DNA from: Loktanella sp. PT4BL
GTDB taxonomy: Bacteria; Pseudomonadota; Alphaproteobacteria; Rhodobacterales; Rhodobacteraceae
Reading direction: 5' to 3'
NCBI RefSeq assembly: GCF_003201935.1
Contig: NZ_QJJL01000002.1
Coordinates: 310,001 to 374,000, forward strand
DNA length: 64,000 nucleotides
Numbering within the stretch: position 1 is the stretch's first letter; each line of letters starts with the position of its first letter. A program made the translations under genes and the position numbers. Below the pieces are notes generated by a model that did not search any database, was not told the origin of the DNA, and saw only the letters and a program-made list of their open reading frames with translations. This document shows positions 9,673 to 59,718 of the stretch, in pieces.

Positions 9673-11412
9673 ATGCATACCAGTAAAGTAACAGAAGAAA
9701 CCAAAGCTAAAGTTGCTACCCTACTTAACAAGGTTGTAGCTACAGACCAGAATGGGACTTGGTTCTTTCGGTCGGACACAGGCACAGGTAAGACGACTGG
9801 TTTCATTGAAGCTGTAGAGAACTACGGTCTGGATGTAGCTATCGCTGTGCCTACCACTGAGGATGTGGATAACGTCTACAAAGCCTTTATTGATATGGGC
9901 CACCCTGCCGTTATGAAATGGTATGTGGGTAGCGGTACAGTCAAAGAGGACGCCAAGTTTAGTAAGGTTGTGATCGGTACACATAAGTGGCTCTTGGGCG
10001 ATGCTAACCCTACAGGCCACACAGGTAAGAACCGTCTACTGATTATTGATGAAGTCCCAAACGATATTACTGCGATTGATCTTAAAGGTTCGGATGTAAT
10101 ACGCGCTAGGGAGGTAGCAGAAGCCTACAATCTTAAGTCTGTAGGTAGCTTCCTAAAGCTAGAGGATTGGGTGCAGGATCAACTAGCCTCTGATGATGTA
10201 CGCCCTTCTTATGAAAAGATGGAATACCGCCCCAGCAAGAGCAGTACTTCCCTAGCTGATGTAGAGAAAGAAATTCTCAAGAAGGTAGACCGAGAGGAAG
10301 ACAAGAAGGCTATCAGAAAGGTAACTACACTACTTGAGGCGGCTAAAGATGGTCGTGCTTACAAGTGTAAGGTTCGTAATACCTCTACAGGTGGCTTTCA
10401 GGTACTATTTGCCTGCTTCAAGTTTTGTAATCAGTGGTTCGATAAGCAGGTTATCTTTAGTGCCACATCTCACTTGGACGGGTTCCAATTCCATAAGGAC
10501 AAAGACAGGCTATTGGACGTTGACGGTGTTCTGGTAGATTATAGCAACCTAAAGTTCACTCATGTCCCTTGGCCTAAGTTGGATAAGTACATCCCTAAGA
10601 TCGTCGGTAATCGGGCTATGCGTCAGCTTGCTACAGACCACATCAAGAGCATGTTTGACCTAGGTTCTGGTACTACTCTTGTGGTCGTTCCTAAACTAAT
10701 CAAGACCGATGTAGCCTACAGCCTGAATGCTTCACAAGAGGACGGTCAGGGCGCACATGAGGGTATGTTCCAAGGTCGTAAGGTGTATGTCACCAATTGG
10801 GGCAGAGACGTCGGTAGTAACGCTTACAGGGAGTGTGAGACAGTCATACTCTGGTCTAATCTGTATAAACCTAAGCACACCACTTTCTCAGAACTCTTAG
10901 CTAGGAATGAAGAGCGGGTTAATGACCACAACCTAAGTGAAGTTGAAGGTGGTAGGTTCACAGGTAGACCTAAGGGGCTACAACAAGGCCAACTCCTAGC
11001 TGGTATTAAACAGATGGGCTGTAGGGGGACTGCACGTAACGTAGACGACAATGGTATCTGCGCACCTATGCACCTTATCATGTCTTGGGATGGTCTTGAG
11101 GAAGCACAGCTAAAGGGCATCTTTCCTAATCTGCAATACAGGACACACACACCTACAGAAGACCGCCTCAAGCCTAGGGTGACTAGCAAACAACCAGTCC
11201 CTCAGAAGGTCCTACATACCCTCAAAGAAAAGTATCACGACAGGGTAGAAGTAAGTCTACAGGAAGTCTGCACATGGATTCCTAACGCCAAGAAGCACAC
11301 CAAGAAGTTTGCCGAATGTAACGATATGTTCAAAATGCATGGGTGGGAGTTCATACCGACAGTAAAGGGCCGATATGGTGAACCTGCCAAGTTTGTAGGT
11401 AAGGGGTTCTAA
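9673..11412 (+). CDS. DEAD-like SF2 helicase / origin-binding-type ATPase, 579 aa
   Basis: Walker A SDTGTGKTT lies at about residues 34-42, the DEAD-box equivalent IIDEVP at 125-129, the motif III-like VIFSATSHLDG near 260, and a motif VI-like QMGCRGTAR about residue 450. The order is that of a superfamily 2 helicase. The C-terminal 100 residues (PVPQKVLHTLKEKYHDRVEV onward) are basic and may bind DNA. There is no primase or nuclease motif. It starts 1 nt after the sigma-like gene stop, with TGAGGA just upstream. As the only ATPase of the island it is the best candidate for initiating or driving its replication. It carries the palindrome TGTAGCTACA at 9735-9744 inside the coding sequence. Confidence 0.7.
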   Translation: MHTSKVTEETKAKVATLLNKVVATDQNGTWFFRSDTGTGKTTGFIEAVENYGLDVAIAVPTTEDVDNVYKAFIDMGHPAVMKWYVGSGTVKEDAKFSKVVIGTHKWLLGDANPTGHTGKNRLLIIDEVPNDITAIDLKGSDVIRAREVAEAYNLKSVGSFLKLEDWVQDQLASDDVRPSYEKMEYRPSKSSTSLADVEKEILKKVDREEDKKAIRKVTTLLEAAKDGRAYKCKVRNTSTGGFQVLFACFKFCNQWFDKQVIFSATSHLDGFQFHKDKDRLLDVDGVLVDYSNLKFTHVPWPKLDKYIPKIVGNRAMRQLATDHIKSMFDLGSGTTLVVVPKLIKTDVAYSLNASQEDGQGAHEGMFQGRKVYVTNWGRDVGSNAYRECETVILWSNLYKPKHTTFSELLARNEERVNDHNLSEVEGGRFTGRPKGLQQGQLLAGIKQMGCRGTARNVDDNGICAPMHLIMSWDGLEEAQLKGIFPNLQYRTHTPTEDRLKPRVTSKQPVPQKVLHTLKEKYHDRVEVSLQEVCTWIPNAKKHTKKFAECNDMFKMHGWEFIPTVKGRYGEPAKFVGKGF

Positions 11413-50499: not shown

Positions 50500-50518
50500 A
50501 GTGGCGGACAGACAGGGA
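50500..50518 (+). repeat. Left att core of island 2
   Basis: A 19-bp copy of the tRNA-Ser(GGA) 3' end plus one flanking base. No tRNA body is attached on this side, so this is the far junction relative to the tRNA gene. Confidence 0.92.
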
Positions 50519-50588
50519 GAGATACCCACCTTGTCAATATGAGATATATCCCCCCTACCCTACTGTAAAACAACAGTTATTGTATGTT

Positions 50589-50654
50589 TCTGTATCTGAG
50601 TGTTGCCTGCGGATTCTGTAAATGTCATACCCTTAGTGTATCCGTAGTGTATCC
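50589..50654 (+). promoter_or_regulatory. Candidate left arm-type sites of island 2
   Basis: TCTGTATCTG at 50589-50598 and AGTGTATCC at 50635 and 50646 (11 bp apart) lie between the att core and the integrase start. Both words recur at the right end (59564 and 59552). The shared words at both ends suggest integrase or AlpA-assisted binding sites. Confidence 0.5.
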
Positions 50655-50663
50655 ACAGAGGGC

Positions 50664-51926
50664 ATGATGACACTAGCAACAGATCTGGCAATTCGTAAGT
50701 GGAAGCCGACGAAGGATGGCGAGGCGATCGGCACGGGTGGCCGCACAGGCCTTTATGTTCGCGGCTGGAAAACTGGCACAAAGGCTTTTTACTTTCGGGC
50801 CAAGACTTGGATCAAGATGGGCGATTATCCTGACACATCACTTGCAATGGCACGTGAGTTGTCAACGGTTGCCAAGCGGCTGGCCCGCGAAGGCTTTGGC
50901 GTTGACGCACTGAGTCGTGGGTTTGCCAATGCGACCACAGCGACAGAGCTTGAAGCCGTTATCAGGGGCGAGGTGTTGGCCGGTTTTGCTGATGTGGGCG
51001 CGACCAACGCCCCGACCTACCATGACCTTTGGAGCGAGTGGTATGAAGGGCGCAAACACAAGCTGCAAGAAGGCCCAAGCCGCCGCCGCCCTGAGGCTAT
51101 CCACCTGCACCATATCAAGCCGGTTTTGGGCGATCGACCTATCACAGAAATCAGGCGGCGTGAAATTTTCAACCTGCTTGAACCTTTATTCCGCGAAAAG
51201 CCGGTCACCGCCGGCCATGCTTTGGGACACATCCAAGCGGTGTTTGATCGTGCTACGAATAAAGAGTTGATCGAGGCCGACCCAACGCCCCGCAAGTCGG
51301 CTTTCGCGGATGCCGTAGCGCGACGTGAGGTGAAGCACCACGGCACCTTGGCACCTGAGCGGATGCCAGAACTTTGGCATTGGCTGGGCACGACAGATGC
51401 AAGTGACACCGCCAAGCTGGCGATCCTGACGGCCATGACGACCGGCCACAGGATCGGTGTGATCGTTTACGCTGAATGGGCGCATATCGATGATGCAAGT
51501 GGTGTGTGGACCGTGCCAGCGCGCACAGACCGCACGACACAGGGGCGGATGAAGTCTGGCAGGGAATACGCCCTACGCCTACCTGAGTCGCTGCTAGAGC
51601 GTCTGAGAGTCCTTCGCAAAGATCCAGATCAGCAATATGTATTCGAAAGCCCGACAACGACAGGGCCAATATCGCCCAATGCTATCCGCAAAACGCTGAA
51701 ACGGTTTGACGCTGATCTAACGGCACACGGCTTTCGGAACGCGATCAAGGGATGGTGCAGGACCGCGAAGCCGCCTGTGCCGGATCACATCGCAGATGCG
51801 TTTTGTGACCATAGCTTGCGAGGGCTGGACGCAGCCTATCGTCGCGGTGACACTTCCACAGAACGCGCGGATCTTGCGGCGCGTTTGTGTGACTTTGTGA
51901 TGGGGGGTGATGATGAACAACGCTAA
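50664..51926 (+). CDS. Tyrosine recombinase (integrase) of island 2
   Basis: A 420-residue P4-type integrase. The N-terminal domain (RKWKPTKDGEAIGTGGRTGL, FYFRAKTWIKMGDYPDTSLA) is the DUF4102-like arm-binding region typical of P4/tRNA integrases. The catalytic domain has Arg in TTGHRIGVIVY, the His-x-x-Arg box AHGFRNAIKGW, then CDHSLRGLDAAYRRG with His and the nucleophilic Tyr. Two adjacent ATGs at 50664 and 50667 can start it; AGAGGG lies upstream. It sits next to the left att core and overlaps the following small ORF. Confidence 0.93.
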   Translation: MMTLATDLAIRKWKPTKDGEAIGTGGRTGLYVRGWKTGTKAFYFRAKTWIKMGDYPDTSLAMARELSTVAKRLAREGFGVDALSRGFANATTATELEAVIRGEVLAGFADVGATNAPTYHDLWSEWYEGRKHKLQEGPSRRRPEAIHLHHIKPVLGDRPITEIRRREIFNLLEPLFREKPVTAGHALGHIQAVFDRATNKELIEADPTPRKSAFADAVARREVKHHGTLAPERMPELWHWLGTTDASDTAKLAILTAMTTGHRIGVIVYAEWAHIDDASGVWTVPARTDRTTQGRMKSGREYALRLPESLLERLRVLRKDPDQQYVFESPTTTGPISPNAIRKTLKRFDADLTAHGFRNAIKGWCRTAKPPVPDHIADAFCDHSLRGLDAAYRRGDTSTERADLAARLCDFVMGGDDEQR

Positions 51927-52338
51927 TAAATCTGCCCGAGAAGAGTTTCTCGCCCTTTGGGAGCTTTACAAAATAAGTAAAAAGAACGGCAGAAAAAATG
52001 CCGCTATGCTTGCGGATATGATGGCGTCGAACGCTGAATTTTTTATGACCAAAGAAATTTGGCAGGAGCTGATCTCTATTTTGCGTGAGTTTGACAAGTT
52101 TCAGGACGGCGAAAACAAAACGACTACAAAGCGAAGAGAAGAAGGCTGGTTTTTTTGGCATCACTATAGAAATCTGCGGGATGGTTATGGCAAGACAGAG
52201 TCAAAGGAATTAATTGGTGCTCAATTTGGTGTATCGTTTGACCGTGTTCATAAGGTTATTGAAAGAAAATACGCCACAGTGTTGATAGACAGAGAAGCGG
52301 AATTCAATCAATTATACAATGAGTTGAATTCGAAATAG
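51910..52338 (+). CDS. Hypothetical protein, 142 aa, coupled to the integrase
   Basis: It overlaps the integrase end by 17 nt, with GGGGGGTG as ribosome site. Helical and charged throughout (NKSAREEFLALWELYKISKK), with a C-terminal helix-turn-helix-like segment (LIGAQFGVSFDRVHKVIERK) suggesting a DNA-binding factor. Composition is more AT-rich than its neighbours. No family recognised; a regulator or directionality factor is possible. Confidence 0.55.
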   Translation: MMNNANKSAREEFLALWELYKISKKNGRKNAAMLADMMASNAEFFMTKEIWQELISILREFDKFQDGENKTTTKRREEGWFFWHHYRNLRDGYGKTESKELIGAQFGVSFDRVHKVIERKYATVLIDREAEFNQLYNELNSK

Positions 52339-52416
52339 GACAAACCATAGTTTTGTCCTTTGAGCCGCTCGTACCCAAAAGCGTATCCAAGTGTCATAAG
52401 CAACCGGAGAGTTTCC

Positions 52417-52611
52417 ATGCCTGACACACAAACCACACAGCGTTGGCTAAATGCCGAGCAAGTCGCCGCACGTTATGGATGCGGTCGCGTCACAGTTTAC
52501 CGGATGGTCAAGCGCGGCCAGATACCGGCCCCTATCCAATTTTCTGGACGAATGAGCCGCTGGGACGTCAATGGGCTGAACGCAGCCGACGAAGCCCGCA
52601 CCGCACAGTAA
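52417..52611 (+). CDS. AlpA-family excisionase/regulator
   Basis: A 64-residue MerR-like HTH protein: RWLNAEQVAARYGCGRVTVY then RMVKRGQIPAPIQFSGRMSR-WDVNGLNA. These are the canonical AlpA blocks (Y-G-x-S/G-R-x-T-V/I-Y/W and W-x-x-x-x-V). AlpA proteins control integrase expression or act as excisionase in P4-like satellites. ATG 52417 has CCGGAGAG upstream. Located between the integrase and the primase, the standard satellite position. Confidence 0.85.
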   Translation: MPDTQTTQRWLNAEQVAARYGCGRVTVYRMVKRGQIPAPIQFSGRMSRWDVNGLNAADEARTAQ

Positions 52612-52712
52612 AAAACGCCACCGGTAGCAACGGCGGCGCTTTTAGGGATCTTTGAACTGTCCCAACCTTAGCACGCTTTGTGTACCGGTGCCAGTATGAA
52701 GGCATCGAGTTG

Positions 52713-55076
52713 ATGACACACGATATAAAAGAAACGGAGCAAGACCGCTCTGTTGTTTTGTTCAACGGAAGCAGGGATACGCGCATTCACGATCCGTCGG
52801 CTGAATATGCCACGATCACGCCGAAACAGATCGTTGCATTGTGCAAAGCCCCACGGGACAAGCCAAAAGCGGATGCACTGGCGATCATTCCTTCTACATA
52901 CCGCGCCTACAATGCCAGAGAACACGCAAAACAACGCGAACACGGCAGCTATCCATGGTCCTGCTTTGATATCGACACCGGCAATCTAACGCTGGCTGAA
53001 GTCAAAGCGGCGTTTCAGGCGGTGTTTGGCGAAGAAACCACCATGCTGATTTATTCAACATCGGGTTCAACCGCCGATAACCGCAAGTGGCGGGTGCTGA
53101 TACCGCTGGCCCAGCCAACGCGAGGTGCTGACTACACCGAACAGCAAGAAGCCTTGTGTGACCTGCTGGCCGAGCATGATCTTATCTGTGATCGTGCCCT
53201 CTGCCGCACAGGCCAGCCGGTGTTCTTACCGAACGTTCCACCGGACAAACGTGATGCCGACGGTATGCCGCTTTTTTATCAGCATGAGATCCACAAAGGG
53301 GCACGGTTCAACACAGCAGCGTCAGAGCCGCTACAGAGCCGCTTACAGGCGCGAGCAGAGGTCGAAGCGGCGTCGGCCGGACATGCCGAAATAGAGCGGC
53401 AGAAGGCCGCGCAAAGGCGCGCTGAGCGGGTGAAGGAATATGGGGAGGGCACATCCCCCGTCGACGCGTTCAACGCAGCCAACGCGTTGCCCGACCTGAT
53501 GCTGCTATACGGTTATGTGCACTCCCACAAGGATCACTGGATCAGCCCGAATAGCGAGAGCAAAGGCGCGTCTGTTCGATTGTATGGCGACCGCTGGTGC
53601 AGTCTCACCCAATCTGACGCTGGCATCGGGCGGGATGGTGCAGTCGGCAGATGGGGCGATGCCTTTGACTTGTACGTTCACTACGAACACGGTGACAAGT
53701 ACGCTGAAGCAGTAACTGCATATGCGCGGGAAGCAGGGTTAAACAGCCAGCGAGATGTATCGCTGGATGATTTTGATGAGGTGCCAAGTGAAACTTCGCG
53801 AAACGCGGCAAAACCGCCGGCGCCAGAGACAGACCCATATCAGCAGTATTTTGCAGTGGATAGCAGGGGCAACATCCCTTTCAACCACCATAACGCTATG
53901 GAGATTATCACAAAAGATGAAGCATGGCGTGACGTGTTCGCCTTCGACGAGTTTAGTCAGCGCAAAATGGTGATGACTATGCCACCTAATGTGGCCGGAA
54001 ATCGCAATTTCTTCAAACCACGCGAGATTAAAGACAGCGATTATGTGGACGTTTTGCGTTGGTTCAACCTCAATGGCTTTCTGCGGGCCAACAAGGCTAC
54101 GGTCTGTGATGTGGTAGATGCCGCTTGCATGGAAAACATCATATCACCTGTCAAACATTGGCTAGAGGGACTCGCCGAAAAACACCCGAAACCGGACATG
54201 AGTTTGCTCACTACGTGGGCCGTGACGGCGCTTGGCACTGATGTCGAGACAAGCGAGAAGCAGAATTATGTGGAGGCAGTCAGTCAGAAGTGGCTGATTG
54301 CAGCGGTCGCACGCGCGATCAAGCCCGGCTGCAAAGCCGACGCCGTGCTGATCCTCGAAGGCTCGCAAGGCGCAGGCAAGTCGACAGCGAGCCGGATCCT
54401 CGCTGGCGATGACTGGTTCGGTGACGCCCTGCCGCCGATGACCTCAAAGGACGCATCCGACTATCTGCGAGGCAAGTGGATCGTAGAACTGGCCGAACTG
54501 TCCAACATAAACAAAGCCGAGGTGGAGATTGTCAAAGCATTCGTCAGCCGCACCGAAGAACGGTTCCGCCCCGCCTATGGCCGCAGCGAAATATGCTACC
54601 CAAGATCTTGCGTATTCGTCGGCACCACAAACAAAACAGACTACTTGCGTGATGATACAGGCAACCGACGCTTCTGGCCGATTAAATGCGGTAAGATTGA
54701 TCTGGAATGGCTCAAAGAACATCGTGATGAACTGTTTGCAGCAGCCGTCGTAGCGTTCAAAAACGGTGAGCCGTGGTGGCTGAACGCCGACGAGGACGCA
54801 GCTGCGCGACAAGAGCAAGAACACCGCTACAGCGAGGACGCATGGGCCGACGCAATCCGAGAATGGGTCACGCGCGAAAACATCGAGACAACCTACATTC
54901 TGGAAGTAGCAGAGAAGGCGCTGGAATTTCAGACAAAAGATGTTAACCGCACCGTGCAGAACCGGATCAGCAGTATCCTGACAGAACTAGGCTTTACCAA
55001 AGCAGCCAAGCGGGGCAAAAGCGGACGCTTTCGTGACAAGACGATATTCACACGTGGCATGGATGATTTGTTCTGA
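52713..55076 (+). CDS. Primase-helicase: N-terminal primase-like domain fused to VirE/D5-type helicase
   Basis: A 787-residue replication protein. The N-terminal third contains WSCFDIDTGN and MLIYSTSGSTADNRKWRVLI-PL, resembling the bifunctional primase domains of phage and plasmid proteins. The middle holds a Toprim-free linker. The C-terminal half is a virulence-associated-protein-E (VirE)-type SF3/D5 ATPase: Walker A LEGSQGAGKSTA near residue 550, Walker B-like GKWIVELAELSN, and the sensor block GTTNKTDYLRDDTGNRRFWP. It would prime and unwind the element at its own origin; the inverted repeat 120 nt downstream is the candidate site. ATG 52713 has GAAGG upstream. Confidence 0.85.
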   Translation: MTHDIKETEQDRSVVLFNGSRDTRIHDPSAEYATITPKQIVALCKAPRDKPKADALAIIPSTYRAYNAREHAKQREHGSYPWSCFDIDTGNLTLAEVKAAFQAVFGEETTMLIYSTSGSTADNRKWRVLIPLAQPTRGADYTEQQEALCDLLAEHDLICDRALCRTGQPVFLPNVPPDKRDADGMPLFYQHEIHKGARFNTAASEPLQSRLQARAEVEAASAGHAEIERQKAAQRRAERVKEYGEGTSPVDAFNAANALPDLMLLYGYVHSHKDHWISPNSESKGASVRLYGDRWCSLTQSDAGIGRDGAVGRWGDAFDLYVHYEHGDKYAEAVTAYAREAGLNSQRDVSLDDFDEVPSETSRNAAKPPAPETDPYQQYFAVDSRGNIPFNHHNAMEIITKDEAWRDVFAFDEFSQRKMVMTMPPNVAGNRNFFKPREIKDSDYVDVLRWFNLNGFLRANKATVCDVVDAACMENIISPVKHWLEGLAEKHPKPDMSLLTTWAVTALGTDVETSEKQNYVEAVSQKWLIAAVARAIKPGCKADAVLILEGSQGAGKSTASRILAGDDWFGDALPPMTSKDASDYLRGKWIVELAELSNINKAEVEIVKAFVSRTEERFRPAYGRSEICYPRSCVFVGTTNKTDYLRDDTGNRRFWPIKCGKIDLEWLKEHRDELFAAAVVAFKNGEPWWLNADEDAAARQEQEHRYSEDAWADAIREWVTRENIETTYILEVAEKALEFQTKDVNRTVQNRISSILTELGFTKAAKRGKSGRFRDKTIFTRGMDDLF

Positions 55077-55198
55077 CCTGTATACGTGAATGAAAGTATC
55101 AAAAGGGGCGGTCTCACGACTGCCCCTTTGTCTTGCCAGCGGGGCGTGACTTTATGGAATGTCTTATTTTCATGCCCATTTTTCCCTATTTACCCAAA

Positions 55199-55350
55199 AT
55201 GGGCGCGACGGGCGCGACTTTCCCACATAACAAATGGGGTGAATGTAAGTATATGTAAACATTGTATTTTAATGCGTTAATAGGGATATAGAGCCCACAG
55301 GCCCATTATTAGTGGTAAGTTACGTAAGAAGTCGCGCCCGTCGCGCCCAT
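55199..55350. repeat. 22-bp perfect inverted repeats around an AT-rich core (candidate origin)
   Basis: The left arm 55199-55220 and right arm 55329-55350 are perfect reverse complements over 22 bp. Each arm contains two direct copies of GGGCGCGAC (2+2 facing inward). The 108 bp between them are AT-rich (TATATGTAAACATTGTATTT and TTAATGCGTTAATAGGGATA). It lies in the 376-bp gene-free space directly after the primase-helicase gene, and nothing else is visible there. GC-rich binding repeats around an AT-rich unwinding region suit an origin; a large regulatory hairpin is the alternative. Confidence 0.6.
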
Positions 55351-55452
55351 CGCTGGCGGTGGCTAAGTCCGCATCAGGTTAAAAACAACGACTAAGCCTG
55401 CTGGCTGCAATTATGGCGTGCGCGCGAGGGACGCGCCGGTGAGGTTATTGGT

Positions 55453-55701
55453 TCACGCCTGACGCCTAACGCCTACGCCGTCCTCGAATAGAAATTCGAT
55501 GCCGCGTTGCTCATAGAAAAGGGTGAGCAGCACAATAATTTTGGTTGATGGTTTGATCTGTTCATCGCGTTCCGCTCTGCGCAAGCTCGCGGTTGAAATG
55601 CCAATTTCATCACAAATCTGCCTTACATCTAAGCCGAGCAAGCTGCGTGCTGCTCTAAACTGCTCGGGAGTCACTTCATTATTTTGATTGTTATCGCTCA
55701 A
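55453..55701 (-). CDS. Xre-family repressor-like protein
   Basis: The core (TPEQFRAARSLLGLDVRQIC, DEIGISTASLRRAERDEQIK) is a lambda-type HTH of the Cro/C1/Xre class. With the TTG start at 55701 it has 82 residues; the open frame extends to 55791 but that part is hydrophobic and overlaps the divergent gene. The palindrome CTCAATTTGAG around 55697-55707 lies over the proposed start, a possible autoregulatory operator. It is the only leftward gene of the island, so it is likely the lysogeny-type repressor that keeps the rightward genes silent (inference). Confidence 0.7.
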   Translation of the reverse strand: MSDNNQNNEVTPEQFRAARSLLGLDVRQICDEIGISTASLRRAERDEQIKPSTKIIVLLTLFYEQRGIEFLFEDGVGVRRQA

Positions 55702-55749
55702 TTTGAGTGTTATCCCGTTAATGTGTGGCGTTAGTAGAAAGCAAAATAG

Positions 55750-55977
55750 ATGTACGACCAAACGAAAGCACAGGTAAAGATCGAAGAGCAATCATTTGTG
55801 GTCGCGGGTTTGATCGAAGCGCTGGTGCAATTATACCCCGATGTGAACGGGAGCGCGGATGATGACGCCTATTTAGCGGTGCTATCGCAGGCACAGGTGG
55901 CCGCTCAAGCCCTGCGCTGGCGCATTGAGCAGTTAGGCAACGATGAAGACATAACGCCGCTCAACATCATTGGTTAG
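55750..55977 (+). CDS. Small protein, 75 aa
   Basis: It begins MYDQTKAQVKIEEQSFVVAG and is acidic and helical (LIEALVQLYPDVNGSADDDA). Divergent from the repressor gene and just after the origin-like repeat, the place where satellites keep early regulators. The end overlaps the next ORF by 8 nt. No family recognised. Confidence 0.55.
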   Translation: MYDQTKAQVKIEEQSFVVAGLIEALVQLYPDVNGSADDDAYLAVLSQAQVAAQALRWRIEQLGNDEDITPLNIIG

Positions 55978-56194
55978 AAACATCCCCAAAAAACCAACGC
56001 ACAAGACCGCCACCACAGACATACTGGTGCGACGTGCCGTCGAGCGCGCGGTAGAAGGCGTCCTCGATCGGTGGGCGGCGGGCAACACCGCAGCGCAGAC
56101 TGAGATCTATGTCACCAAGCTACGCCTGACCGCTGCGCACCTACGCCAAGAGGCGCAGGCGATCGATGAGCTGGCGGACGAAGAGGCGCAATAG
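55970..56194 (+). CDS. Small basic protein, 74 aa, TTG start
   Basis: It starts at TTG 55970, overlapping the previous stop by 8 nt, and encodes VRNIPKKPTHKTATTDILVR then a helical part (RRAVERAVEGVLDRWAAGNT). A basic N-terminus followed by amphipathic helices suggests nucleic-acid binding. The start codon is unusual and rests on the overlap. No family recognised. Confidence 0.45.
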   Translation: MVRNIPKKPTHKTATTDILVRRAVERAVEGVLDRWAAGNTAAQTEIYVTKLRLTAAHLRQEAQAIDELADEEAQ

Positions 56195-56214
56195 CGGGTC
56201 CCGCCTGAGAGCGT

Positions 56215-56361
56215 GAAGGTGGGTACGCGTTATGCGATGATGTCCTGCCCATTCAGAATTTCCGGCAAGGTCTCGCACTAAGGCCCGCAGAATTTCTATC
56301 GACAGAACCGGCTGATGACGGGTCCTTTGGTGAGGATCCGAAGGCGGGTACGCGTTATGCG
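56215..56361 (+). repeat. Direct repeats in the gap before the capsid module
   Basis: GAAGGTGGGTACGCGTTATG (with CG following, 56215-56236) recurs at 56340-56361 with one mismatch (GAAGGC), 125 bp apart. CAGAATTTC also occurs twice between them. The 295-bp region has no supported gene and precedes the MerR-like ORF and capsid gene, so these may be regulator or packaging sites. Confidence 0.5.
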
Positions 56362-56488
56362 TTTATTGCACCCACTGTCCGCCAAAATTAGCGCAAATAC
56401 CATCATTTGAGTGATGCAGTAGTTTTGTCGCAGCACTGCATAATGTATAGTTATTACAAGGACCTAGATACCGAAAGCGAGGTTTCCA

Positions 56489-56920
56489 ATGCTATTTACA
56501 GCGCAAGATCTGGCGCAGACCGCCGGTTTCAAAACCGCAGCAAAATTGACGAACGAAATGCACCGGAATGGCCTACCGTTTGGCAAGGGTGTCCGCGTGG
56601 GCAACGCCAAGCGATATGGCACGGTGGATCTTGCCAAGGCGATCGTGATGTCCCGACTGAGGGCGTTCCGGATCCCAGTAGCACAGCACAAGGCCCTGAT
56701 CGACTTGATCGATGAAACCGCGCTGGCGTCTGCTTTGGATCAATTCGAGGCTGGCGAAGTCGCGTGTGTTCTAGTGGCGATCCCAAGCTGGGCAGAACTG
56801 GATGACTATTCTGGGGTGTTCACAAGCCGTGAGGCCGCGTTGGAAGCCCTGACTGAAGCCGACTTTATTTTGATTGATGTGGGCGAAGTCACGCAAGCCC
56901 ATCTGCAGGGGGTGATCTGA
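56489..56920 (+). CDS. MerR-like helix-turn-helix protein, 143 aa
   Basis: The N-terminal LFTAQDLAQTAGFKTAAKLT, followed by RVGNAKRYGTVDLAKAIVMS and RLRAFRIPVAQHKALIDLID, resembles the winged-helix region of MerR/AlpA-like regulators (x-R-Y-x-x-x-D-L, then Leu-Arg at a helix start). The C-terminal half (ACVLVAIPSWAELDDYSGVF) may be a small sensory or dimerisation domain. First of three genes joined by ATGA-type overlaps ending in the capsid gene, so it could control or belong to the morphogenesis module. Confidence 0.5.
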   Translation: MLFTAQDLAQTAGFKTAAKLTNEMHRNGLPFGKGVRVGNAKRYGTVDLAKAIVMSRLRAFRIPVAQHKALIDLIDETALASALDQFEAGEVACVLVAIPSWAELDDYSGVFTSREAALEALTEADFILIDVGEVTQAHLQGVI

Positions 56921-57291
56921 TGCAAGCTACCGCGAAATGGCTAACACCTGCAGAGGCCGCACAAACACGCAAGAACGGTGTCACAACCGCAATGGCAATG
57001 GTGCAGGCCGCTTTCCCTGAGTGGCCTGAGAGCCGCACAGACGCCCTGCTAGAGGCCTCGATGACTTTATGGGGGCGTGGGCCGCTTATCACGGCAAACA
57101 CGCTCGCACGGACCGCTGATCTTATCACGGAGGCTTGGGCGATGCGCGATCACATCGCTGGTGTGATGCTGGTGCGCCAAGGTGAAGGCTTTACCCCACT
57201 TTACCTGCACCGGCATTTGCTGGCGCTGAAAATGCAATCGCCCACTGCCCTATGGGTGCACTTTACACCTTTGAAGGAGGCCGACACATGA
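56920..57291 (+). CDS. Hypothetical protein, 123 aa, coupled upstream of capsid
   Basis: It starts at the last base of the previous stop region (TGATG) and ends overlapping the capsid-fusion start (ATGA 57288-57291). Helical, with LTPAEAAQTRKNGVTTAMAM and EAWAMRDHIAGVMLVRQGEG. Position just ahead of a capsid gene suggests a head-related or decoration/scaffold role, but this is inference. No family recognised. Confidence 0.5.
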   Translation: MQATAKWLTPAEAAQTRKNGVTTAMAMVQAAFPEWPESRTDALLEASMTLWGRGPLITANTLARTADLITEAWAMRDHIAGVMLVRQGEGFTPLYLHRHLLALKMQSPTALWVHFTPLKEADT

Positions 57292-58943
57292 CCGACCTGA
57301 GAGCAATGCCGACTGCTGGAAAGCGTCTGAGCGCAGCCGAGGCCGATGCGATCCGCGCGATGGCGACCCGCGATCTGGATAAGACCGCAACAGCGACCAC
57401 GATGGTCAGTTGTCTGGATCCGCATGAGACACCGCTGGCGACCAGTTACCGCGCAGCCCGCGCGAATGGCCGCGAGGCATATGAAATTACAGCACCGAGC
57501 AACACGGTGTTGGAAAGTGGGCAGGATAGCCCGCTGCCCATCCTGATTGACGGAAACACACGCGACCAAGTGGGCGCGGTGCAAGTCACGAAAGATGGGC
57601 GCGCAATCGTCACCTTTTCTCGATCGGAAAAGGGTCGCGAGGCTGGCAAGGCCTTTATGACAGGCGATCGAGCGTTGAATGTTGCTTATCTTAACCGAGG
57701 TAATAGCCGGATAGCTGCAGCCTTGAGTTTAAGAGCCGTTACGGACGGAAAACGCCATAAGGAGGCCGATATGTCCGACAATCTTGAAATTCTCGCACTG
57801 GGTGAGAAATACGACCGCACAGCACTGGCAGAGAAAGCAATCCGCGAGGGAAAGAGCATCTCTACCTTCCGCAGTGATCTGCTGAGTGCCATTGAAACCA
57901 AGCCGCTGGATGACAGCGATCTTGGGACGCCTGCATATCACAAGGGTGGCAACCGCACATTCAACGTCGCAAACATCCTGCGCGCTGAAGTGACCGGTGA
58001 CTATTCCCAAGCTGGTTTTGAGCGTGAGCAATCGCAGGAAGCTGCGCGCAATTATCCGTCTGCACCGCGCGGTGTTGTTGTGCCGACCGAGGCCATTCTG
58101 GGCCGCGCGTCGATCACATCGACAGGCAATGCGTCCGGAGCCGTGACAACGGATCTTAACGCGAGCATGTTTATCGATCGGTTGCGTCCGCAATCGTCGG
58201 TGATGGCCGCAGGCGCGACTGTCATGTCCGGAATGGACCGGAACTTTACCGTTCCGAAGCTGGTGACAGACACAGCTGGAGAATGGCTGGCAGAAGGCGC
58301 TGCAGTGACCGAAAGCGCGATGGACATTGGCAGCATCTCGATGTCGATGAAACGTGTGTCCGCGTCGCAATCTTTCACACGCGAGGCATTGCTGCAGGCA
58401 CAGCCAAATCTCGATGATCTGGTGCGCCGAAACCTTGGGATCGTTCTGAGCCAAGCGATCGATCTGGCAGGGCTGGAAGGCACTGGCGCGAACGGGCAAC
58501 CTACGGGGGTCCTGAACACGTCTGGTGTGAACACGCTCACCGCAGCTGGAAACACGCTCACCCGTGCAGAGGCGCTGACCGCGCTGGCAGCGATTGAGGC
58601 GGATAACATCGACACAACCGATGCCGTGTTCATCATGCACCCCAACGATTATGCGCGCATTGCGCAAACGGTGGTGGATACTGGATCCGGTAAGTTTGTG
58701 ATTGATGCGCCGAGCAACAGCATCTTGGGCCGTCGCGTTCTGCAGACCACAAAGGCAACCGAGAGCAACGTTTACCTTGGGATCTTTGAGCACCTACTGG
58801 TGGCAATGTTTGGCGGGGTCGATCTGGTGGTGGATCCCTACACAAACGCAGCGTCCGCGAAGATCGGGATCACATCGCACATGATGGCCGATGTGAACGT
58901 GCGTCACCCACAAGCGTTTAATGTGGTGTCACTGACCGTATAA
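57288..58943 (+). CDS. Prohead protease-like / HK97 major capsid fusion protein
   Basis: A 551-residue protein with AAGGAGG ribosome site. Residues about 45-140 resemble the prohead protease of known protease-capsid fusions (SPLPILIDGNTRDQVGAVQV, GRAIVTFSRSEKGREAGKAF). The expected catalytic His of the LL-x-DH motif is Gly (IDGN), and the Ser of the SVGY motif is missing (LNVAYL). A linker (LGEKYDRTALAEKAIREGKS) follows. Residues about 230-551 are an HK97-fold capsid subunit (VVVPTEAILGRASITSTG, MKRVSASQSFTREALLQAQP, FIMHPNDYARIAQTVVD, DSG-like VIDAPSNSILGRRVLQ). It would assemble heads; the dead protease domain may serve as a scaffold. No portal or terminase genes accompany it. Confidence 0.82.
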   Translation: MTDLRAMPTAGKRLSAAEADAIRAMATRDLDKTATATTMVSCLDPHETPLATSYRAARANGREAYEITAPSNTVLESGQDSPLPILIDGNTRDQVGAVQVTKDGRAIVTFSRSEKGREAGKAFMTGDRALNVAYLNRGNSRIAAALSLRAVTDGKRHKEADMSDNLEILALGEKYDRTALAEKAIREGKSISTFRSDLLSAIETKPLDDSDLGTPAYHKGGNRTFNVANILRAEVTGDYSQAGFEREQSQEAARNYPSAPRGVVVPTEAILGRASITSTGNASGAVTTDLNASMFIDRLRPQSSVMAAGATVMSGMDRNFTVPKLVTDTAGEWLAEGAAVTESAMDIGSISMSMKRVSASQSFTREALLQAQPNLDDLVRRNLGIVLSQAIDLAGLEGTGANGQPTGVLNTSGVNTLTAAGNTLTRAEALTALAAIEADNIDTTDAVFIMHPNDYARIAQTVVDTGSGKFVIDAPSNSILGRRVLQTTKATESNVYLGIFEHLLVAMFGGVDLVVDPYTNAASAKIGITSHMMADVNVRHPQAFNVVSLTV

Positions 58944-58959
58944 GCGAACACGGCTGAAT

Positions 58960-58978
58960 GGGTGCTGGTAGCGCACCC
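58960..58978 (+). terminator. Hairpin after the capsid gene
   Basis: GGGTGC (58960-58965) pairs with GCACCC (58973-58978) over a 7-nt loop, 17 nt after the capsid stop. No T-run, so it is a weak terminator or an RNA end signal. Confidence 0.4.
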
Positions 58979-59058
58979 TCGGGCAGCCGTTATCCCGCCC
59001 CTCTTAGCTAGGCCTTTACGGGTCGGGGGGCGGGAACCAACACAAAGGCAGACTGGCA

Positions 59059-59517
59059 ATGCTGAATCTAGACAAGGCCCCCCTAATTGCCCGCAGGCGG
59101 CACACCGAAGGCCTGACAAGGCGTCTGACCAAACTTTGCTTAGATGCCGCCCCCCATATCAAAGAAGCACTTGAGCCGTTCGCAGAATACTGGGGCGAAG
59201 CCGATGTCGAGATCTTTATTGGCGACAAGCCGAAGGCTACGCTGCGAGCATCGTTCCGACATAAAACGTGCAGAGGTGACCGTGCGGCCTTTGAAGCGAC
59301 CGTAAGGCTGGGCACCGATAACCGCGTGGATGTCGAAGCCTATGCAATGGGCTGGACCAGATTCGGGTCGATCAAGCGCGGTGCGGTCGATCAGGATCCG
59401 ACAGGACGCAGTGTTGCCAACGCCTATCTCACAGCCCTGAAACCCCGCATTGAAGCCGCGTTCGAGGCAGTTGTGCTGGGTGAAGAAGAACGGTTGCCGT
59501 CTATTCTGATCGACTGA
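59059..59517 (+). CDS. Hypothetical protein, 152 aa, last gene of island 2
   Basis: A soluble protein: N-terminal basic helices (RRRHTEGLTRRLTKLCLDAA), then strands (ADVEIFIGDKPKATLRASFR, NRVDVEAYAMGWTRFGSIKR) and a C-terminal helix (AFEAVVLGEEERLPSILID). It does not match head-completion or terminase families that I know. It lies after the capsid gene and 110 nt from the right att core. Could be a head-size or helper-interaction factor by position only. Confidence 0.5.
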   Translation: MLNLDKAPLIARRRHTEGLTRRLTKLCLDAAPHIKEALEPFAEYWGEADVEIFIGDKPKATLRASFRHKTCRGDRAAFEATVRLGTDNRVDVEAYAMGWTRFGSIKRGAVDQDPTGRSVANAYLTALKPRIEAAFEAVVLGEEERLPSILID

Positions 59518-59551
59518 GGCTGATTTTGAGCGGCCAACGCAAAAAATACAA

Positions 59552-59573
59552 AGTGTATCCGCGTCTGTATCTG
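59552..59573 (+). promoter_or_regulatory. Candidate right arm-type sites of island 2
   Basis: AGTGTATCC (59552-59560) and TCTGTATCTG (59564-59573), 54 bp before the right att core, repeat the words found next to the left core. Confidence 0.5.
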
Positions 59574-59626
59574 CAATCCATTGGCAGACCAATTTAGCTC
59601 TTATTTACAACATGTTATGGGGTTTT

Positions 59627-59645
59627 AGTGGCGGACAGACAGGGA
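59627..59645 (+). repeat. Right att core of island 2 (in tRNA-Ser 3' end)
   Basis: The identical 19-bp sequence, overlapping the CCA end and T-arm of tRNA-Ser(GGA) on the minus strand. Confidence 0.92.
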
Positions 59646-59718
59646 TTCGAACCCTGGAGACGGTCTCCCGCCTACACACTTTCCAGGCGTGCGCCTTCGA
59701 CCACTCGGCCACCTGTCC
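59629..59718 (-). tRNA. tRNA-Ser (anticodon GGA), carries the island 2 integration site
   Basis: A 90-nt class II tRNA on the minus strand: acceptor GGACAGG pairing with CTGTCC, long variable arm, anticodon loop CTGGAAA giving GGA, T-loop TTCGAAT, encoded CCA. Its 3' 17 nt are part of the 19-bp repeat that bounds island 2. Confidence 0.97.

Follow-up and report, generated by a model that had tools for sequence, protein, structure and literature searches.

A satellite-like element in a tRNA-Ser gene of Loktanella sp. PT4BL carries a capsid gene with a motif-less protease domain

Introduction

What can an element of about 9 kb do with a capsid gene if no portal, large terminase, or tail gene is recognised beside it? 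The question is raised by a 9,127-bp insertion at positions 50500–59645 of a 64,000-nucleotide stretch of the Loktanella sp. PT4BL genome (contig NZ_QJJL01000002.1, positions 310,001 to 374,000; hereafter the window), which is flanked by perfect 19-bp direct repeats. A first-pass annotation had described it as a minimal capsid-carrying phage satellite and as an unusual middle case between satellites lacking a capsid gene and the capsid-forming phage-inducible chromosomal islands (cf-PICIs). With slightly better than even confidence, we read it as a phage satellite whose capsid homolog would enter the head assembly of a helper phage, giving heads that favour the satellite DNA. Genomes and loci are designated by G and L numbers, respectively.

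Results

The insertion and its target gene

The left repeat attL (AGTGGCGGACAGACAGGGA, 50500..50518) has its perfect copy, attR, at 59627..59645, where it lies at the 3' end of the target gene, a tRNA-Ser(GGA) gene on the minus strand (59629..59718). The att repeats and the target were thus correctly assigned in the first-pass annotation. In genome G402 of the same genus, the site is empty. It contains one copy of the repeat between aligned flanks that are 92.7% and 93.4% identical to those of the window, from which the insertion size of 9,127 bp follows. The att ends, the empty site, and family scans also bear out the description of a precisely delimited element of satellite type that has just one capsid gene. 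Each of the scans covered ten open reading frames (ORFs), namely without orfE for Pfam, without the Xre-like ORF (added later) for PHROGs, and without orfB for NCBIfam.

The capsid protein and its fused protease-like domain

The gene at 57288..58943 (plus strand) encodes an HK97-fold major capsid protein of 551 amino acids (aa) with a fused N-terminal protease-like domain. It matched Phage_capsid (1.3e-30), TIGR01554 (1e-29), and phrog_617 (1e-73), a family of major head proteins whose full-length members start with a prohead protease. The wording of a lone capsid therefore has to be corrected, since the protein is a protease-capsid fusion with a dead protease. The reported absence of a protease holds for the active protease motifs, but a protease-like domain is present, fused to the capsid. 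Peptidase_S78 was found by Pfam in all five related fusions scanned (four over the cut-off, L093 just under it) and was not detected by Pfam in the window protein. A hand-picked alignment of 31 fused capsids comprised four proteins of type A, as the window element and the relatives of the whole element are called here, and 27 others. All 27 non-type-A proteins have an xH motif, an S(V/I/C)GY motif, and a later segment with a PAD-like motif at its end. In all four type A capsids, DG replaces the His, NVAY, SVAY, or SVAT replaces SVGY, and the later segment is absent. When capsid ORFs of at least 540 aa were tested, with repeated entries of one locus counted separately, all three motifs were present in 89 of 90 non-type-A ORFs, the single failure being L121 (His pattern), and in none of six type A rows, which represent four proteins.

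The protease-like domain without catalytic motifs covers approximately residues 45–140, and the predicted mature shell residues 284–551. The latter boundary was derived from roseophage R4C, whose gp6 is a 629-aa fusion. The PDB chain 8GTA has 268 residues, corresponding to residues 362–629 of gp6, and R4C residue 362 maps to residue 284 of the window protein, leaving 268 residues. The processing of gp6 is inferred from gene length versus chain length; the words protease and cleave are absent from the R4C structure paper. As the fused protease lacks its motifs, about 283 N-terminal residues would have to be removed in trans, and the maturation of type A capsids probably needs a protease from elsewhere, either the helper's or the host's.

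The predicted mature part equals the R4C chain in length and can be aligned to most of it, which gives the impression of a complete shell domain. This would suit a reduced cf-PICI, in which the entire shell would consist of the satellite capsid and the contribution of the helper would be limited to portal, terminase, protease, and tail. We regard such a reduced cf-PICI as improbable, because cf-PICIs, as described in the available part of PMC10690885, combine genes for capsid, protease, portal, and connectors with those for both terminase subunits, and the Ccm protein of the satellite SaPIbov5 does not form capsids alone according to the accessible text of PMC8569155.

The capsid gene is under purifying constraint. 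Its dN/dS is 0.086 (dS 0.87; Nei–Gojobori, window versus L044), with 0.117 for the N-terminal part and 0.076 for the rest; the comparisons with L045 and L034 were excluded, as their dS is near saturation. Three integrase comparisons gave values of 0.05–0.08. The capsid gene is therefore not a relic. The loss of the protease motifs in a protein that is strongly constrained as a whole, protease-like domain included, would also be compatible with dominant-negative interference. In that case, the protease-dead capsid would assemble together with the capsid of an incoming phage, block maturation, and protect the host. The satellite itself, should it travel, would use ordinary helper heads like the phage-inducible chromosomal minimalist islands (PICMIs). 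No other head gene was recognised in the element, and assembly-blocking defences such as Tab are known (PMC10884400, as far as its available text goes); PICMIs, too, shield their hosts from other phages (PMC10803314, available part). We nevertheless consider interference unlikely. The capsid gene ends an orfC-orfD-capsid operon common to L045, and it does so in an element that has att sites and replication genes of its own. Moreover, the capsids of three further island types (B–D, see below) keep intact protease motifs, which suggests that the group has a building role.

Terminase, portal, and tail genes

The PHROG, Pfam, and NCBIfam scans of the window gave no match to a large terminase, portal, or connector and, apart from the capsid, no convincing match to any family of head, packaging, or tail proteins. 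In this respect, the first-pass statement that terminase, portal, connector, and tail genes are absent was borne out as far as recognised genes go, but the absence of a small terminase is not secured. The AlpA-like and the Xre-like protein gave marginal small-terminase matches (to phrog_57 with E 0.033 and to phrog_2538 with 0.04, respectively), which we read as a shared helix-turn-helix. A divergent small terminase or another small head protein may be among orfA to orfE or the helix-turn-helix proteins. orfB, orfC, orfD, and orfE gave PHROG matches only at E 0.04–0.1.

The queries of additional tblastn searches were 24 proteins of four phages (terminase, portal, head, and tail), the small terminase of G641, and two capsids. 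In 11 of 20 loci and in L175, both large terminase and portal were detected; among types A–D, this applied only to L044. Nothing was found with this query set in L191–L198, eight loci with distant capsids. The set was insensitive, since it missed the large terminase (TerL) and the portal in L038 and L171 and the TerL in L041, for which PHROGs gave E < 1e-90. The PHROG scans are therefore the stronger evidence for absence. No large terminase or portal was detected in the ORFs scanned from the window, L045, type B, L037 and L039 (type D), and some of type C; types C and D were covered by a subset of their ORFs.

Relatives of the whole element

Of 394 genomes of the family, 45 gave capsid matches at E ≤ 1e-10, the own genome included. 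Close matches were confined to G236, G224, and G390 (56%, 49%, and 45% identity), with fragments in the latter two; in G236 (L034), no other gene lies between the capsid gene and the following tRNA-Ser, a different one from that of the window. The scan of a species-genome collection yielded four capsid loci, namely L044 (Yoonia sp., 88%), L045 (57%), L046 (the G236 locus), and L047 (the G224 locus). Within the genus of the window, the capsid search at E ≤ 1e-20 matched three of 56 genomes: the own genome, G294, and G414, whose capsid contig agrees with that of L044 in position and length. Integrase matches at E ≤ 1e-60 occurred in seven of the 394 family genomes (own included); relatives of the integrase are present in G026, G330, G224, and G323. 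Among 72,556 plasmid records, ten matched the capsid, all partially and with less than 60% identity.

The first-pass annotation had named relatives with terminase and tail genes as a finding that would make the element a deleted prophage. In L045, the one complete relative, none were recognised. Its perfect 19-bp repeats lie at 472–490 and 9719–9737 and match its own variant of the targeted tRNA-Ser(GGA). It shares gene order, att layout, and target with the window (integrase 84%, AlpA-like protein 84%, capsid 57% identity). In L045, a DUF3987 protein replaces the VapE-type replication protein, and the element further contains a restriction-endonuclease-like cargo gene, orfC, an orfD-sized gene, the capsid gene, and an unmatched ORF on the opposite strand. 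G237 and G390 share integrase, an orf2-type gene, the AlpA-like gene, and orfB with the window and have a third replication protein. No capsid was found on their integrase-bearing pieces, which run into transposase genes (G237) or the contig end (G390); orfC and a decayed capsid are located on a different contig in G390. Judging by the DUF3987 protein of L045 and the third replication protein of G237 and G390, the replication module is exchanged between relatives while the att/excision module stays.

On the minus strand of L044 (2510–8900), remnants of a small terminase, the start of a large terminase, a connector-like protein, and a portal were noticed, interrupted by groES/groEL. This region may be a decayed prophage or a misassembly of the metagenome-assembled genome.

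A deleted prophage with the capsid as a leftover would fit the fragments in L035/L047 (266 aa), the internal stops in L036, and L044, in which the left half is gone and terminase and portal remnants are nearby on the other strand, with 1.1 kb between the capsid gene and the closest of them. However, the low capsid dN/dS gives no sign of relaxed selection, the complete L045 has the same gene order and perfect att repeats, and the site is empty in G402. In addition, the same protease motifs were lost in all four type A capsids, and these belong to a satellite-side capsid clade (see below). A deleted prophage is thus very improbable, far more so than the interference discussed above.

Other capsid islands and the capsid tree

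An order-level profile search of 390 genomes, a sample overlapping with that of the family, gave 18 at E ≤ 1e-40 (own included), all of which belong to the same family. Three further architectures of small elements with related capsids were recognised. Together with the precedent of SaPIbov5 Ccm in the available part of PMC8569155, they argue against the view of an unusual middle case.

Type B is represented by G641 (L170:3272-12235) at tRNA-Leu(GAG), with 14-bp repeats 8,950 bp apart. L170 has an integrase gene with a 4-nt overlap to another gene and further encodes a primase, a capsid fusion with intact protease, a small terminase (phrog_57, 2.9e-24), and others; the PHROG scan revealed no large terminase or portal. 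A PLD-like gene was also noted by eye.

In type C (G100, G170, and G477), genes for capsid, an AlpA-like protein (75–77% identity), and integrase (70–83%) lie side by side. No att repeat was found; the search gave a single 13-bp match, which falls within the capsid gene of L040. Damage is apparent in two of these genomes, with a split upstream gene in G170 and a truncated capsid gene in G477.

Type D (G026, G135, and G594) is located at tRNA-Cys and comprises a capsid fusion, a major tail protein (phrog_1407, 1.1e-24), an Xre protein, and an integrase. Perfect 47-bp repeats are 8,225 bp (G135) and 8,929 bp (G594) apart, and an interrupted pair spans 8,586 bp in G026. The tRNA-Cys islands L039:5887-14158, L174:256-9231, and L037:6922-15554 span three genera. 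Two proteins, each about 340 aa long and similar at their starts (L037:7088-8131 and L173:7917-8927), lie beside two different capsid islands; they gave no PHROG match and are candidates for cargo or defence proteins.

L038, L041, and L171 appear cf-PICI-like, with integrase, TerL, capsid, portal, and no obvious tail genes. TerL was confirmed in all three and the portal in L038 and L171, where both genes lie beside unfused capsids; the portal-like gene of L041 was recognised by eye.

In a tree of 31 capsids, type A forms one group (100/99) and is placed with L170 (89/91) and the capsids of types C and D. A reduced tree omits L032, phiHAP-1, and R4C as long branches. Here, nine capsids of types A–D stand opposite 19 others across a 99/99 branch, and the pairing of L170 with type A is weak (61/63); the program warns of long branches in this reduced set. 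All 19 opposite capsids have an adjacent portal gene (11 viral contigs; L008, L012, L013, L014, and L018, judged from their longer loci; ep3, Alexa, and CRP-811). The IMG/VR capsid scans took in three loci and then 80 of 291 relatives, and in all 11 of these 80 that were checked for gene content, a portal gene lies upstream. The capsids of types A–D likely represent one satellite lineage, which is not proven because the tree is unrooted.

Remaining genes and sites of the element

The family scans and the repeat search recovered the integrase, AlpA-like protein, VirE/VapE-type primase, origin-like repeat, Xre-like protein (weakly), and HK97 capsid of the first-pass annotation. Its gene list was right but incomplete, and orf2 and orfE were added. 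The tyrosine integrase (420 aa, 50664..51926, plus strand; Pfam and PHROG matches) is 84%, 90%, and 83% identical to those of L045, L137, and L138, respectively. orf2 (51907..52338, plus) occupies the position of the PICMI gene iolg and overlaps the integrase gene by 14–20 nt depending on the start codon, as its frame opens at 51907 and the integrase gene ends at 51926. Its product is 62% identical to the L137 counterpart and has no match in Pfam, PHROGs, or NCBIfam. The AlpA/excisionase-like HTH_17 protein (64 aa, 52417..52611, plus; 3e-8) shows 84% identity to L045 and 86% to L137. The VapE-type primase/helicase (787 aa, 52713..55076, plus) matched PF05272 (1.2e-77), and its DUF5906 match (1.7e-5) is just below the cut-off.

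The primase gene is followed by a perfect 22-bp inverted repeat with units of GGGCGCGAC and 108 bp between the arms (55199-55220/55329-55350). The fold z-score of the region 55199-55350 is −6.2, and its fold is more stable than those of all 200 shuffles. The repeat is origin-like and may be a replication origin; no counterpart was found in the L045 region searched. The Xre/HTH_3-like repressor candidate on the minus strand (55453..55791) matched HTH_3 weakly, below the cut-off (7.6e-4), and its true start is uncertain, probably downstream of 55791.

orfA (75 aa, 55750..55977, plus) is an ORF call without a family match in Pfam, PHROGs, or NCBIfam. orfB (74 aa, 55970..56194, plus) is conserved in related elements, with 80% identity over 45 aa in L137 and 60% over 43 aa in L138. 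Upstream of orfC, two 27-bp direct repeats (89%; 56215-56241 and 56340-56366) are a candidate regulatory or packaging site. A 16-bp repeat before orfC was considered as a packaging signal shared with phages and rejected. It had two exact matches in viral contigs, L202 and L203, of which that in L202 was judged to be chance; L202 showed no element protein and one weak tape-measure match, and L203 no match by tblastn.

orfC (143 aa, 56489..56920, plus) is the first gene of the capsid operon. Homologs were found upstream of the capsid gene in L045 (31%) and, with an internal stop, in L036 (36%). orfD (123 aa, 56920..57291, plus) shares 1 nt with orfC and 4 nt with the capsid gene; these overlaps make translation of the capsid within an operon probable. 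A 33-aa stub of orfD (73% identical) remains in L044, and the L045 gene at this position is similar in size without a significant sequence match. orfE (152 aa, 59059..59517, plus) follows the capsid gene, is 59% identical in L044, and has a dN/dS of 0.21 (window versus L044, Nei–Gojobori).

Probable integrase arm sites with the sequence TGTATC are located at 50591, 50637, and 50648 (50591..50653, plus; spacing 46/11 bp) and, on the right side, at 59554 and 59566 (59554..59571, plus; spacing 12 bp). Eight copies of TGTATC occur across the element versus 2.9 expected from base composition. The spacings are identical in L045 (46, 11, and 12 bp; 563, 609, 620 and 9646, 9658), L137 shares the 46/11-bp spacing on the integrase side in mirrored form, and L034 the 12-bp spacing on the right. 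A promoter scan gave six hits versus 5.6 expected.

Discussion

Redirection of a helper's head assembly, with cleavage of the capsid homolog in trans, is preferred here because Ccm of SaPIbov5 is the nearest experimentally understood case. In such a cycle, infection by a helper phage would de-repress the element, AlpA and integrase would excise it, and the primase would replicate the excised DNA. The orfC-orfD-capsid operon would supply the capsid homolog, which would join or replace the helper's capsid protein in the heads. The helper would contribute portal, terminase motor, and tail, and a protease of helper or host would remove the approximately 283 N-terminal residues. A second Phage_capsid match was absent from the own genome G000, in which the search was limited to the capsid and did not extend to other phage genes; this is consistent with an external helper. 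A resident helper prophage was rejected on this capsid search.

Several points weigh against the preferred reading. Neither a helper nor excision, transcription, or a particle of the element was observed. Its capsid is only about 24–39% identical to the phage capsids found, so co-assembly with a given helper is unproven. The xH, S(V/I/C)GY, and PAD-like motifs are presumed, from the S78 family and from their conservation, to hold the catalytic His, Ser, and acidic residue. The 31-capsid tree places one true phage contig, L032, with its very long branch, on the side of the satellites. L045 is the single other complete type A element found; L034, L044, L035/L047, L036, L137, and L138 are truncated at contig ends, incomplete, interrupted, or decayed. 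Finally, IMG/VR scans with the integrase gave no relative, although their patterns reach mainly close relatives; the same result and range apply to scans with a two-row orfC alignment.

A broader proposal, on which we place somewhat less than even confidence, is that the family holds a guild of 8–9 kb islands with up to four architectures, which share one satellite-specific protease-capsid lineage and would take nearly all other virion parts from phages. In the window branch, the fused protease would have been inactivated while the protein remained under selection, so that only a helper protease could mature the shell. If this is true, the window capsid has been made dependent on helper infection, and the conserved, motif-less maturation protease is a built-in clue to that dependence. 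Known satellites have no capsid, a nearly complete head, or, in the case of Ccm, one capsid homolog. The element would represent a second origin of the one-capsid strategy that is independent of Ccm, lies in another phylum, and builds on a PICMI-type core. It becomes testable how few head genes suffice for a satellite to control the shell of its helper, and whether satellite-spread capsid homologs form lineages apart from phage capsids.

Among the matches listed in our searches of the satellite literature, no title or abstract dealt with lone-capsid satellites of Rhodobacterales. The closest phage proteins are the phrog_617 fusions of ep3, Alexa, CRP-811, R4C, and phiHAP-1, which share capsid family and domain order with the window but keep the protease motifs. 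In these phages, the capsid gene is immediately preceded by a portal gene; that of ep3 is annotated as "capsid protein" and is 63% identical to the Alexa portal.

In the PICMIs of Vibrionaceae, as far as the available part of PMC10803314 describes them, alpA, int, and iolg are needed for excision and prim for replication. Integrase, AlpA, and primase are mandatory in the PICMI model, iolg occurs in 21 of 35 subfamilies, and the fis site is optional in a broader model. The window element contains this mandatory trio (DUF5906 just under the cut-off) and resembles PICMIs in its integrase-overlapping gene, AlpA-type helix-turn-helix protein, primase of the DUF5906/DUF3987 kind, small size, and att repeats. 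The commonest PICMI integrase overlap of 4 nt is found in L045, L137, L138, and L170, in contrast to 14–20 nt in the window. Unlike PICMIs, the element lies at tRNA-Ser(GGA) and not beside fis, and its host is not a Vibrio. According to the same partial source, a typical PICMI has no capsid-remodelling gene, whereas the window carries a capsid gene.

With cf-PICIs (PMC10690885, available part), the element shares a satellite-encoded HK97-type capsid, but it differs in the lack of recognised portal, connectors, and large terminase and in the loss of the protease motifs. In the accessible text of PMC8569155, Ccm of SaPIbov5 is 24% identical to the helper capsid protein, fills pentamers, and makes the heads isometric; it was found cleaved, with no protease identified in the SaPIbov5 genome. 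Both elements are small satellites with one capsid homolog, no identified protease, and removal of an N-terminal domain, which is predicted in the window. SaPIbov5 is an unrelated cos-type Staphylococcus aureus pathogenicity island, and Ccm is not described as protease-fused in that part of the report. Its redirection of helper heads is experimentally established, whereas that by the window capsid is a proposal. In outline, the window capsid would act as Ccm does, in an unrelated element and after independent recruitment. Compared with the published systems, the window element is neither a PICMI as described nor a cf-PICI; it looks set up to function like a PICMI with a Ccm.

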